DNA from: Collimonas humicola
GTDB lineage: Bacteria; Pseudomonadota; Gammaproteobacteria; Burkholderiales; Burkholderiaceae_D
Direction of reading: 5' to 3'
Length of the DNA stretch: 64,000 nucleotides
Assembly (NCBI RefSeq): GCF_018304945.1
Contig: NZ_JAGQEE010000001.1
Location: 1,612,001 to 1,676,000, forward strand
In this document: piece by piece, positions 37,757 to 42,090 of the stretch
How positions within the stretch are numbered: position 1 is the stretch's first letter
How the letters are laid out: every line of letters begins with the position of its first letter
Translations under genes and position numbers: made by a program
Notes under the pieces: model-generated
What the model was told of the DNA's origin: nothing
Database searches by the model: none
What the model saw: only the letters and a program-made list of their open reading frames with translations

Positions 37757-38968
37757 ATGCCCGCGATAATCGATAACCGAATCTTGAATCATCAGACCAT
37801 GCAGCCGAAATCCCTTTCCGACCAGCGTCCGCCAACATCCCTGGCCTTGTTTTGCAAGGTCGTCGACAACTATGGCGACATCGGCATCTGCTGGCGCCTG
37901 GCGCGGCAGCTGGAGCAGGAACATGGGATTGCCGTGACCCTGTGGGTCGACGACTTGCAGAGCTTCCGGCGGATTTGCCCTGAAGTCGGCGTCGACCAGG
38001 AGCTGCAGCTGATCAGCGGCGTCACGGTACGCCATTGGCGCGACCAGCAAGGCGCATTCAGCGCGCAAGACGTGGCCGATATCGTGATCGAGTTTTTTGC
38101 CTGCGACATTCCACCCGGCTATATCCAGGCGATGTCGGAACGCAGTCCGCGTCCGGTGTGGCTGAACCTGGAAGGACTGAGTGCGGAAGAATGGGTGGAA
38201 GGCTGCCACGCCTTGTCGTCGCCGCAGCCGCAATCCTTGACCAAATACTTCTTCTTCCCCGGCTTCACCAGCCGCACCGGCGGCTTGCCGCTGGAATCCG
38301 GCTTGCTCCAGCAGCGCCGGGCATTTCAGCAGGATGCGGCGGCAATCAGCGCTTTTCTCGGACAGTTCGGCGTCACGCCGGCCGAGATGGCATCCCTCAA
38401 AATCTCCCTGTTCTGCTACCCCCAGGCACCGGTTGCCGAGCTGTTCGCAACCTGGCAAGACAGCGGCCGGACGATCACCTGCCTGGTGCCGGAAGGCGTG
38501 GCCACCGATGCCGTCCAGGCATTTCTCGGACAAGCCGCCACCGCAGGCGCCAGCGCCAACCGCGGCGCGCTGACCGTGCGCGTGCTGCCCTTCGTGCCGC
38601 AGCCCGATTACGACAAGCTGCTATGGGCTTGCGACCTCAATTTCGTCCGCGGCGAGGATTCTTTCGTGCGCGCGCAGTGGGCCGCCAAGCCGTTCATCTG
38701 GCATATCTATCCGCAAGACAAGGATTTGCATCACGTCAAGCTCAATGCCTTCCTGCAAGCGACCAGCGCAAAAACCGCCAGCCTGATTGCTTTCACCCTG
38801 GGATGGAACGGCGCCGCCGGCGAAGCCGTCGACTGGAACGTGGCATGGCGCCGGCTTGAGGCCGAGCTGCCGGAAATTGCCAGATTGTCTACAAGTTGGG
38901 AGAGTCAATTGCTGGCAAATGGCGACCTGGCCGCCAATTTATGCAAGTTCGTCGAAACAGTTAAGTAA
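37757..38968 (+). CDS. earP: EF-P arginine rhamnosyltransferase
   Basis: A protein of up to 403 residues (GT104, GT-B fold) that transfers rhamnose from dTDP-rhamnose to an arginine of elongation factor P in the cytoplasm. Its signature FCKVVDNYGDIGICWRLARQL includes the conserved Asp residues of the catalytic site, and FFFPGFTSRTGGLPLE and the C-terminal RGEDSFVRAQWAAKPFIWHIYPQ are present. Two starts are possible (37757 or 37799), giving 403 or 389 residues; the later Met is closer to the conserved core. efp follows 138 bases downstream on the same strand, the known arrangement. Confidence 0.95.
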   Translation: MPAIIDNRILNHQTMQPKSLSDQRPPTSLALFCKVVDNYGDIGICWRLARQLEQEHGIAVTLWVDDLQSFRRICPEVGVDQELQLISGVTVRHWRDQQGAFSAQDVADIVIEFFACDIPPGYIQAMSERSPRPVWLNLEGLSAEEWVEGCHALSSPQPQSLTKYFFFPGFTSRTGGLPLESGLLQQRRAFQQDAAAISAFLGQFGVTPAEMASLKISLFCYPQAPVAELFATWQDSGRTITCLVPEGVATDAVQAFLGQAATAGASANRGALTVRVLPFVPQPDYDKLLWACDLNFVRGEDSFVRAQWAAKPFIWHIYPQDKDLHHVKLNAFLQATSAKTASLIAFTLGWNGAAGEAVDWNVAWRRLEAELPEIARLSTSWESQLLANGDLAANLCKFVETVK

Positions 38969-39106
38969 GGGGCATGGAAAAATAGGTTAAAATATAGGGC
39001 TAATTTTTGACGCATTCTAAAATTCAATCATACGTGGGCTTGCGGTGCTTCCTGCCAGTAGGCTACAGATGATTTTTATGCAACCTACTTTTTACGTATA
39101 TTCGCT

Positions 39107-39676
39107 ATGAAACCAGCAAAAGAAATTCGTGTCGGCAACATCATCATGGTTGACAGCAAGCCTATGATCGTTCTGCGCTCCGACGTCAACGGTTCGAGCC
39201 GCACGGGCTTCACCTACAAGTGGAAGATGAAGAACCTGCTGACCAACAGCCCGCAGGAAAACGTCTTCCGCGGCGACGACAAGTTCGACGTGGTCGTCCT
39301 CGACAAGAAGCCAGTCACCTATTCGTACTTCGCCGATCCGCTGTTCGTGTTCATGGATGCTGATTACGAACAATACGAAATCGAAGAAGAAAACCTGGGC
39401 GACGCCCTGCACTACCTGAAAGACGGCATGGAATGCGAAGCCGTGTTTTACGACGGCAAGGCAATTTCGGTCGAACTGCCGACCACGATCCAGCGCCAGG
39501 TGGTCTACTCGGAGCCGGCGGTCAAGGGCAACACTTCGGGCAACGTCCTGAAAGAAGCCAAGATTGAAAACGCCATCGAAGCCAACCAGCACATCGTCAT
39601 GGTGCCGCTGTTCGTCAGCTCCGACGACGTGATTGAAATCGACACACGCACCAACGAGTTCAAGAAGCGCGCTTAA
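39107..39676 (+). CDS. efp: Translation elongation factor P (Arg32 type)
   Basis: A 189-residue EF-P that rescues ribosomes stalled at polyproline. At the tip of domain I the sequence [10 protein letters not shown] places Arg at position 32, the residue rhamnosylated by EarP, instead of the Lys34 modified in E. coli. Three domains are complete. It is preceded by an AT-rich leader and followed by a strong terminator. The polyproline-rich TonB encoded at 61-62 kb is an example of a likely client. Confidence 0.97.
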
Positions 39677-40095: not shown

Positions 40096-41343
40096 TTACT
40101 TAGCGAGCACTTCCGCCAGCCTCTTGTTGCCCATGCCAAAACTGGCAATCACCGCCAGGCTGGTCAGCGCCAGGAACCCACCCAGCCACAGCGTGGCGGA
40201 AATCCCTACCGCATCGACCACCACGCCGCCGGTGAAGGAACCCAGCGCGATCGCCACCTGGACGATGCTGACGAACAGCGCCGAGCCGGCTTCCGGCAAA
40301 TCCGGAGAAGAGAGCTGCAGCCAAATGCTGAGGCAGAGCGGGATCGCGCCGAAGGCGACGCCCCAGGCCAGCACCATGACCGCCACCGCAGCGGGCGACG
40401 CATGCACCAGCGGCAATGTCGCCAGGGCCACCAGCAAGATCGCCACCATGGCGAACAGCGAAGCCTGCAGATGACGCGTCACGGTCGTCGAGATCGCCAG
40501 GTTGGCGATAAAGCCGACGAAGCCGAAGCCCAGCAGCACCGACGTAATCGCCGGCAAGCTGAAGTTGTTTTGCGCAAGGAAAGGCGTGACATAGGTATAG
40601 GACGAGAAATGCGCACCAAACACCAGCGCCACCATCAGCAGGCTCTTGCGGGCAGTCGAGCGGCTCAGCAGGGCACGCAGGTCGCTGAAGCGGATCGCCG
40701 CCTTGGACGGCAAGGATGGCAACAGGAAAGCCTGCGCCGCCAGCGCCACCGCTGCCAGGGCGCCGGTGGCGATGAACGAGGCGCGCCACGAATACAGCCC
40801 GCTGATGAAGGTGCCGAGCGGCACGCCGATCACGGTAGCGAAAGTGACGCCGCTCAGTATCATCGCCGTCGCCTTGGCCGCGTGCTCTTGCCGCACCAGC
40901 CGTCCCGCAGTCGCCAGCGCCAGGGTCCAGAAACCGCCCAAGGCCGCCCCCAGCAGGGCGCGCCCCAGCAGCATGATGCCGAAGCTGGGCGCGAAGGCCG
41001 ACACCAGGTTCGATGTCAGCAGCAGGATAGAGAGCGCCAGCAGGATGAAGCGGCGGTCAATCCGCCCTGCTCCCAGCATCAGGCCCGGCGCCGAAATCGC
41101 GGCGATGATGCCGGGCGTGGTCACCATCAGGCCCGCCGTGCCCGGCGAGACGCCGAGATCGCTGGCGATCTGCGGCAGCAGACCCACCGGCAGGAATTCC
41201 GTCGTCACGAAAGCAAAAGCGCCTATCGCCACCGACACCACCGACAGCCAGGAGCGCAGCGGCGATGCCGCGCTGGCCGCGTGGGCCGGCATATCCAGAA
41301 GGCTGTCGTTTTGCGCGCTGAGCGCCGCCAGATTTTTTTCCAT
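40096..41343 (-). CDS. MFS transporter, DHA1/AraJ-like efflux
   Basis: A 415-residue inner-membrane transporter with 12 hydrophobic helices. The start region VVSVAIGAFAFVTTEFLPVGLLPQIASDLGVSPGTAGLMVT is typical of the AraJ/YdhP drug and sugar efflux branch. The frame is open to 41463, but ATG 41343 has GGGGAG 6 bases upstream. Two copies of an Rrf2-type operator lie in the region upstream, so the Rrf2 gene next door probably represses it. Substrate unknown; a toxic small molecule is plausible. Confidence 0.9.
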   Translation of the reverse strand: MEKNLAALSAQNDSLLDMPAHAASAASPLRSWLSVVSVAIGAFAFVTTEFLPVGLLPQIASDLGVSPGTAGLMVTTPGIIAAISAPGLMLGAGRIDRRFILLALSILLLTSNLVSAFAPSFGIMLLGRALLGAALGGFWTLALATAGRLVRQEHAAKATAMILSGVTFATVIGVPLGTFISGLYSWRASFIATGALAAVALAAQAFLLPSLPSKAAIRFSDLRALLSRSTARKSLLMVALVFGAHFSSYTYVTPFLAQNNFSLPAITSVLLGFGFVGFIANLAISTTVTRHLQASLFAMVAILLVALATLPLVHASPAAVAVMVLAWGVAFGAIPLCLSIWLQLSSPDLPEAGSALFVSIVQVAIALGSFTGGVVVDAVGISATLWLGGFLALTSLAVIASFGMGNKRLAEVLAK

Positions 41344-41505
41344 GTAAAACTCCCCTGCGCCTGGTCCAGGACCAGCGATTAAATAAGCCGAATAAAAAAT
41401 TGATTCAGACCAGCCGGCCGGCCTTGACCCGCTACCCACTACCCGCCCGCTCGCCGACTGCACTGCAATGGCATCGAAGCGATGCGATACGATGCGCCTC
41501 GATTA

Positions 41506-41530
41506 AACTGTATTATTTTTAGATACAGTT
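41506..41530. promoter_or_regulatory. Rrf2-type operator, site 1
   Basis: AACTGTA-N11-TACAGTT; the arms extend to a perfect 8-base inverted repeat (AACTGTAT/ATACAGTT). It lies 163 bases upstream of the MFS start. Confidence 0.75.
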
Positions 41531-41578
41531 AAGAACATAAAAATAGGATCGAAATGATCCTTCCTGCCCCGAAAAAAC

Positions 41579-41605
41579 TAACTGTAATATACCAGAATAC
41601 AGTTA
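41579..41605. promoter_or_regulatory. Rrf2-type operator, site 2
   Basis: TAACTGTA-N11-TACAGTTA, a perfect 8-base inverted repeat with the same 11-base spacer as site 1. It lies between the MFS and Rrf2 genes. Confidence 0.75.
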
Positions 41606-41621
41606 TCCATAAAAAAACAGC

Positions 41622-42056
41622 CTATTTTCCAGCCCTGCCGGCGATCTTGTTGACCAGCTCGCACAGCTTTCTTTCCCGCAAAATATCCAGCAAAGCACTT
41701 TCCACTTCCGACACCACCGGGTCCAGCACCATGTCCATGCCGCAGCTGACCGGGCAGCACAGGTCTTTCGAGCGCGTATTGTGCTTCAGCACCGGCCCCT
41801 CTTCCACCGCCAGGTAAATCTCGGCCAGGTTGATGGCAGATGCCGGCCGCGCCAGCTGCACGCCGCCGCCCTTGCCTTCCTTGGTCACCACCAGCTTGGC
41901 CTTGCTCAGCTTGCGCAGCAGCTCGCGCACGAAAACCGGATTAGTATTGACGCTGGCAGCAATCGCCGTGGACGGGAAATACACTTCCCCGCCCCTGGTG
42001 GCGTACTCCACGCTGACTAAGATATGCGCCGCGACGGCAAATCGACTGGACTTCAT
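41622..42056 (-). CDS. Rrf2-family transcriptional regulator
   Basis: A 144-residue winged-helix regulator starting MKSSRFAVAAHILVSVEYATRGGEVYFPSTAIAASVNTNPVFVRELLRKLSKAKLV-type Rrf2 fold. Cysteines at 100, 101 and 105 in LCCPVSCG occupy the effector loop and could hold a cluster or act as a redox switch. The start at 42056 has no Shine-Dalgarno; a -10 box lies 7 bases upstream, so the mRNA may be leaderless. Operator site 3 overlaps its promoter, indicating autoregulation, and sites 1-2 link it to the MFS gene. Confidence 0.9.
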   Translation of the reverse strand: MKSSRFAVAAHILVSVEYATRGGEVYFPSTAIAASVNTNPVFVRELLRKLSKAKLVVTKEGKGGGVQLARPASAINLAEIYLAVEEGPVLKHNTRSKDLCCPVSCGMDMVLDPVVSEVESALLDILRERKLCELVNKIAGRAGK

Positions 42057-42079
42057 ACTGTAATTATATTGCATACAGA
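42057..42079. promoter_or_regulatory. Rrf2-type operator, site 3
   Basis: ACTGTA-N11-TACAGA, sharing 11 of 12 arm bases and the spacer length with sites 1 and 2. It covers the -10 box of the Rrf2 gene and touches its start codon. Confidence 0.75.
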
Positions 42080-42090
42080 TAATCGTGCAA
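42063..42090 (-). promoter_or_regulatory. Sigma-70 promoter of the Rrf2 gene
   Basis: On the minus strand TTGCAC (42090-42085), a 16-base spacer, and a perfect TATAAT (42068-42063). The expected start of transcription is at or within a base or two of the start codon at 42056. Confidence 0.7.

Follow-up and report, generated by a model that had tools for sequence, protein, structure and literature searches.

Quinone modification of the cysteine at the start of helix 5 releases SifR of S. pneumoniae, a member of the Rrf2 family, from DNA, and the operator of SifR and HypR is given as TGTAA-N9-TTACA, 19 bp long for SifR (PMC9218516). The word 'leaderless' is absent from that paper. A leaderless message is described for a repressor of another kind, AcuR of Rhodobacter sphaeroides, which heads a leaderless operon and is translated far below the genes downstream of it (PMC3017554). 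All leaderless starts described for S. meliloti, which has a published list of 171 such transcripts, are ATG (PMC3616915), as are the regulator start codons of the 24 loci compared below. The leaderless genes of Burkholderia cenocepacia are enriched for transcription regulators, and class K (transcription) is over-represented among those of Cupriavidus metallidurans. In the accessible portions of the literature no leaderless Rrf2 autoregulator was found, and those of PMC5015018, PMC7563307 and PMC3017554 describe no leaderless Rrf2 gene, though supplementary tables may already list some. A literature search for Collimonas with Rrf2 found no paper.

The locus described here lies on a 64,000-nucleotide stretch of the genome of Collimonas humicola (NCBI RefSeq assembly GCF_018304945.1), the whole of which is referred to as the window. 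Its regulator is an open reading frame of 144 amino acids on the minus strand (41622..42056, ATG at 42056, stop codon at 41622-41624). It belongs to the Rrf2 family by its fold and by its match to the Pfam profile PF02082 (E 7.3e-26, 91.3 bits with a curated cut-off of 30); its score of 61.3 lies below the cut-off of 73.3 of the NCBIfam superfamily model TIGR00738. The nearest named relatives are from Collimonas (91-94% identity) and then from Herbaspirillum (79-83%). Downstream on the same strand is a DHA1-like MFS exporter of 415 amino acids (40096..41343, MFS_1 E 4.8e-32). The top NCBIfam match of the exporter is the sugar transporter PRK03545 (216 bits, below the cut-off of 401), and its closest solved structures are sugar efflux transporters (PDB 6KKK, E 2.4e-41). 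A Shine-Dalgarno-like AGGGGAG precedes it at 41350..41356 on the minus strand, identified from the sequence and from the exporter start regions of the loci. On the other side of the regulator, a divergent Cdd1 gene (pathogenicity locus, PF11731; 42163-42450, plus strand) starts 107 bases away. The EarP rhamnosyltransferase and elongation factor P, an ordinary gene pair, lie side by side elsewhere in the window (37757-39676, plus strand).

Three dyads around these genes had been noticed in an initial annotation of the window, two of them before the exporter and one over the -10 box of the regulator gene. Both the pattern and this placement were borne out. ACTGTA-N11-TACAGW fits all three without a mismatch, TGTA-N11-TACA is their common core, and two of them lie between the Rrf2 stop codon and the MFS ATG. 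The coordinates of the first two required correction by 1-2 bases while the third was right. The predicted autoregulatory operator, TCTGTA-N11-TACAGT, is at 42057..42079 on the minus strand, where it spans the -10 box and has its last base at -1 relative to the ATG. Putative exporter-side operator 1, with perfect half-sites, is at 41581..41603, 18 bases past the regulator stop codon, and is confined to Collimonas loci; putative exporter-side operator 2 is at 41507..41529, both on the minus strand. The exact pattern occurs at only these three places in the whole 5.62 Mb genome. Allowing up to two mismatches gave eight matches in the window, where shuffles gave 1.02 on average and never more than 4. 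Genome-wide, near matches with up to two mismatches showed no excess (91/97 against 332/299 in a control read backwards), so no wider regulon is visible, and such a regulon was rejected as a candidate. Around clustered near-matches in one other locus (L056) there are two open reading frames, neither of them identifiable on inspection as Rrf2 or MFS.

The predicted promoter of the regulator consists of a -35 box, TTGCAC (42085..42090, minus strand), a 16-base spacer and a -10 box, TATAAT (42063..42068, minus strand), that ends six bases before the ATG. With this -35 box and spacer the promoter elements are less than ideal, and a general promoter scan did not list the promoter because TTGCAC agrees with TTGACA at only three of six places. 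It had been proposed that the spacing of these boxes puts the transcript start at or next to the ATG and that there is no ribosome site. No Shine-Dalgarno match of at least 4 bases was found upstream of the regulator ATG, and the promoter position was examined by comparing loci. Those with protein identity of at least 75% were fetched (37 in total) and, after removal of 13 same-locus copies, 24 distinct loci were retained, 14 from the genus of the window and 10 from Herbaspirillum or its genus code. At the cut-offs used the gene is absent from at least one genome of the same genus (G102, 1.7 Mb) and from one with the Herbaspirillum genus code (G026).

All 24 distinct loci have a promoter at the leaderless position, namely a -35 box, a 16-18-base spacer, a TATAAT-like -10 box and then the ATG that serves as start codon in every one. 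The -35 box starts with TTGA in 20 loci and with TTGC in four; the gap from the -10 box to the ATG is 6 bases, except in L007, whose best match gives 8. In every locus the dyad, as TCTGTA-N11-(T/G)ACAGT, reaches exactly to the base before the ATG; the ungapped mean column identity across it is about 0.9, and at 21-60 bases upstream it is 0.56-0.73. Shine-Dalgarno matches of at least 4 bases are absent from 23 of the 24, the exception being L014 with AAGG. As a control, promoters at this distance were scored ahead of 558 ATG candidates, which came from 290 open frames over 400 kb of the C. humicola genome. The window scores 10.4 and the 24 orthologues 8.9-12.7, while none of the 290 control genes attained the score of the window, the highest reaching 7.2. 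A second in-frame ATG in the window, at 42074 (-18), would sit upstream of the predicted transcript start, and an ATG is found at the same place in just five of the 24 loci. In four loci (L007, L013, L032 and L033) an in-frame stop codon at -12, four codons ahead of the ATG, excludes initiation farther upstream. The proposed transcript start has thus come through this comparison, which gives good support to a leaderless message with its predicted 5' end at the ATG.

The exporter is present downstream of the regulator in all 24 distinct loci (73-100% identity), each with at least one exporter-side operator. The one shared by all is that closer to the exporter, operator 2 in the window. Two perfect exporter-side dyads are found in 12 of the 14 Collimonas loci; of the others, L031 has a single operator, and L012 has a degenerate first one. 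A single exporter-side dyad is present in each of the ten Herbaspirillum-type loci, in the form ACTGTC..GACAGT in nine. The spacing of the two dyads in Collimonas takes values of 65, 68, 74, 75, 80, 85, 87 and 93 bases. Helical phasing of the sites was rejected on account of this variation, which also makes a fixed loop unlikely.

Between the two exporter-side dyads is a terminator-like hairpin, AGGATC-ATTTC-GATCCT followed by a run of T (41545..41561, minus strand). A hairpin and T run occupy the same place, just before the exporter-near dyad, in 24 of 24 distinct loci, although they are weakest in L014. The stems vary yet still pair (GGATC/GATCC, GGGATC/GATCCC, GAGGATCG/CGGTCCTC and AGGACC/GGTCCT). 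Given that one terminator-like site in this region of the window compares with 1.4 expected in shuffles, and so is not significant by itself, it is the conservation that points to this hairpin as the probable end of the regulator mRNA. Across the loci, the exporter showed no convincing sigma-70 promoter; the best common position averages only 5.5 bits, and the commonest position has its top scores in Collimonas, with TTTATA and AATAAT. Despite this, the region 41500-41570 upstream of the exporter is conserved. In the absence of a convincing promoter, it is the position of operator 2 that suggests that it could block exporter transcription.

This arrangement resembles that of AcuR, which represses its own unit from an mRNA that begins at the AUG without a Shine-Dalgarno sequence, a layout also reported for its relatives; however, AcuR is of the TetR family and its leaderless operon transcript includes the target genes, at least as set out in the accessible part of PMC3017554. 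In the window, the target has operators of its own and a terminator-like hairpin intervenes. CvkR (PMC9938897), lambda cI and the tetR of Tn1721 (both also in PMC3017554) are likewise described as repressors made from leaderless mRNA but are of other families and have mobile-element settings.

The initial annotation also drew attention to three cysteines in the effector region, Cys100, Cys101 and Cys105, and all three are present. Among the 24 distinct orthologues Cys101 and Cys105 are invariant, Cys100 is found in 23 and Cys132 in seven; residue 102 is Pro in 20 and Arg in four. Cys101 is also invariant in all 24 rows of a second alignment, A1, nine of whose rows are distant. The solved structures nearest in sequence are 1YLF and YwnA (1XD7), both YwnA types, and the top Foldseek matches of the AlphaFold model (pLDDT 84.4) are 1ylf, RsrR and 1xd7. 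In this model, the mean confidence of which is 68 at residues 91-100 and 82 at 101-110, the predicted long helix spans residues 102-128 with Cys101 just before its start. Cys101 aligns with the conserved cysteine of YwnA and SifR, at the place of the quinone-reactive Cys102 of SifR.

The regulator shares with SifR and with YwnA of B. subtilis, as these are presented in PMC9218516, the Rrf2 fold and a conserved cysteine at the start of helix 5, and the distance between the operator half-sites of SifR is identical to that in the dyads of the window. The same source gives SifR and YwnA a single cysteine with PNPxC, whereas the regulator has Cys-Cys-x3-Cys, and the PNPxC signature (HxxPNPxC) is absent from the window-clade regulators in all 24 orthologues. 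With three clustered cysteines and no PNPxC the regulator was not filed in the monothiol class. The targets differ too, being catechol or quinone enzymes for SifR (PMC9218516) and, presumably, an MFS exporter here. SaiR and HypR are also cysteine-based redox regulators of the Rrf2 family, and HypR shares the operator geometry, but SaiR has C-X7-C and HypR has Cys33 and Cys99 according to what was accessible of PMC9218516; against the NCBIfam model of HypR the regulator scores 40.9 with a cut-off of 180. By cysteine position and operator geometry, the regulator plausibly works like SifR.

Taken together, the locus quite probably forms a self-contained two-gene efflux switch, in which a leaderless, autoregulated, YwnA/SifR-like Rrf2 repressor would be released by thiol modification of Cys101. 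A dimer of the repressor would occupy the three TGTA-N11-TACA sites; at one of these, ending at the base before the start codon, it would mask its own -10 box, and at the other two it would sit upstream of the exporter, so that neither gene is expressed. A quinone-like electrophile or an oxidant that modified Cys101, possibly with Cys100 or Cys105 taking part, would free the repressor from DNA, and exporter and repressor would then both be induced. The repressor mRNA would begin at the A of the AUG and be translated without a Shine-Dalgarno sequence, which may keep repressor output low even under induction, while the exporter, whatever compound it may export, would be translated from a normal ribosome site. 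An autoregulated, redox- or ligand-sensing efflux circuit had been suggested from the outset. Conservation in 24 of 24 loci and the control support three of its parts, namely autoregulation, control of the exporter and the leaderless message; redox or ligand sensing is no more than plausible.

Autoregulation is also compatible with a leadered message, made from a second promoter farther upstream and translated from a ribosome signal that escapes recognition. The in-frame ATG at 42074 fits such a message, as does an ungapped identity that is still 0.56-0.62 at 31-60 bases upstream. Beyond 60 bases, however, identity falls to 0.35-0.40, 23 of the 24 loci have no Shine-Dalgarno match (that of L014 being of 4 bases), and every locus has its promoter at the leaderless position, so that a leadered message appears rather unlikely. 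The three cysteines of the sensor region could instead hold an Fe-S cluster, as in IscR, NsrR or RsrR, and Foldseek does place RsrR and IscR among the close folds. Against this, the scores of the regulator are far under the cut-offs of the corresponding models (IscR 31.4/207.55, NsrR 25.1/182 and RirA 38.3/193 bits), Cys100 is missing in one of 24 orthologues and the solved structures nearest in sequence are YwnA types. To our knowledge the C-C-x3-C arrangement also differs from the published spacing of IscR or NsrR, and cluster sensing is judged rather improbable.

The start-codon dyad might also control Cdd1, which would make a circuit of three members. A weak promoter-like site on the plus strand (42042-42070) overlaps the dyad, and Cdd1 adjoins 11 of the 14 distinct Collimonas loci. 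One such site is nevertheless to be compared with 0.8 expected in shuffles, and the dyad is kept in the ten Herbaspirillum-type loci, where Cdd1 was found in none of the fetched flanks of 1.5-3 kb. Cdd1 is thus unlikely as a third member, and the two-gene switch is preferred.

Leaderless regulators are a known class; what is new is the recurrence of the same layout in other Rrf2 subclades. Four members, each of them leaderless-looking, provided the profile used to gather further Rrf2 genes, and promoters were scored across a wider span of distances. The 136 loci gave 87 unique rows and, after 15 near-copies from the window clade were dropped, a tree set of 72 rows. On the basis of promoter consensus, the leaderless label went to 29 of these and the leadered label to 33, while 10 received neither; leaving out eight window-clade rows, 21 of 64 were leaderless. 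Since sampling began from leaderless members, these fractions are not family-wide frequencies. Among 285 control genes, taken entirely from the genome of the window, two received the leaderless label. On a quick tree with long-branch warnings, the label requires six changes compared with about 20.6 in shuffles, none of 500 being as low. Leaderless rows make up the window clade, the QFS-type clade that attaches weakly to it (in which L165 is leadered and L163 and L164 are unlabelled) and part of a separate clade with GTAAC-N7-GTTAC. The best automatic dyad ends at most 3 bases from the ATG in 16 of the 64 rows outside the window clade, a count without shuffle control. Within that clade, the automatic score picked the start-codon dyad in only two of eight rows as other repeats scored higher, and a fixed dyad pattern was therefore used there.

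The operator word differs between subclades. It is TCTGTA..TACAGT before the ATG in the window clade, and TTGTG..CACAA in other genera of the window's family. On some plasmids of rhizobia, Paracoccus and Ewingella it is GTAAC-N7-GTTAC, which continues into the ATG. A second Rrf2 copy in some Collimonas genomes (L096-L098 and L100), 34-35% identical and leaderless-looking, has GGATA..TATCC, with the dyad GGATACGATAATAATATCC just before the ATG in three of these four loci; the window's own genome has one match only to profile A2 at E <= 1e-18. Among named plasmids, 264 records matched and 15 loci were fetched from the 20 matches listed. GTTAC abuts the ATG in 10 of these 15 (S. meliloti pSymB, Sinorhizobium sp. 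K101, Shinella, three Paracoccus, Pseudosulfitobacter, Roseovarius, Rhizobium sp. T1473 and Ewingella), and in seven of the ten the best promoter scores are at least 7 at 5-9 bases, those of L184, L188 and L195 being lower. The other five, from Rhizobium and Phyllobacterium, do not have GTTAC-ATG and have RNDSRLSRM or RRDSRLSRM starts. On four plasmids (L181, L184, L187 and L189) a gene for an NAD(P)/FAD-dependent oxidoreductase directly follows the GTTAC-ATG Rrf2 gene, with a methyltransferase gene next in L187 and L189, and such an oxidoreductase is likely to be a second kind of Rrf2 target. Some related Rrf2 genes have a dyad over a -10 box that nonetheless ends 21-30 bases before the start.

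We lean slightly towards the view that the fusion of operator, -10 box and start codon within about 40 bases recurs, along with a leaderless message, as a design among cysteine-type Rrf2 autoregulators, having been acquired or retained by several subclades whose operator words differ; their own translation would thereby be held low and independent of a Shine-Dalgarno sequence. If this is true, the locus would provide a compact model for the study of leaderless translation that is conserved in two genera of soil bacteria and belongs to neither phages nor transposons. The leadered Rrf2 relatives would serve as a natural comparison, and exchange of leaders within one family could test why regulators are so often leaderless. 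The regulator would also represent a proteobacterial branch of SifR-like sensors with another arrangement of cysteines, wired to an exporter.
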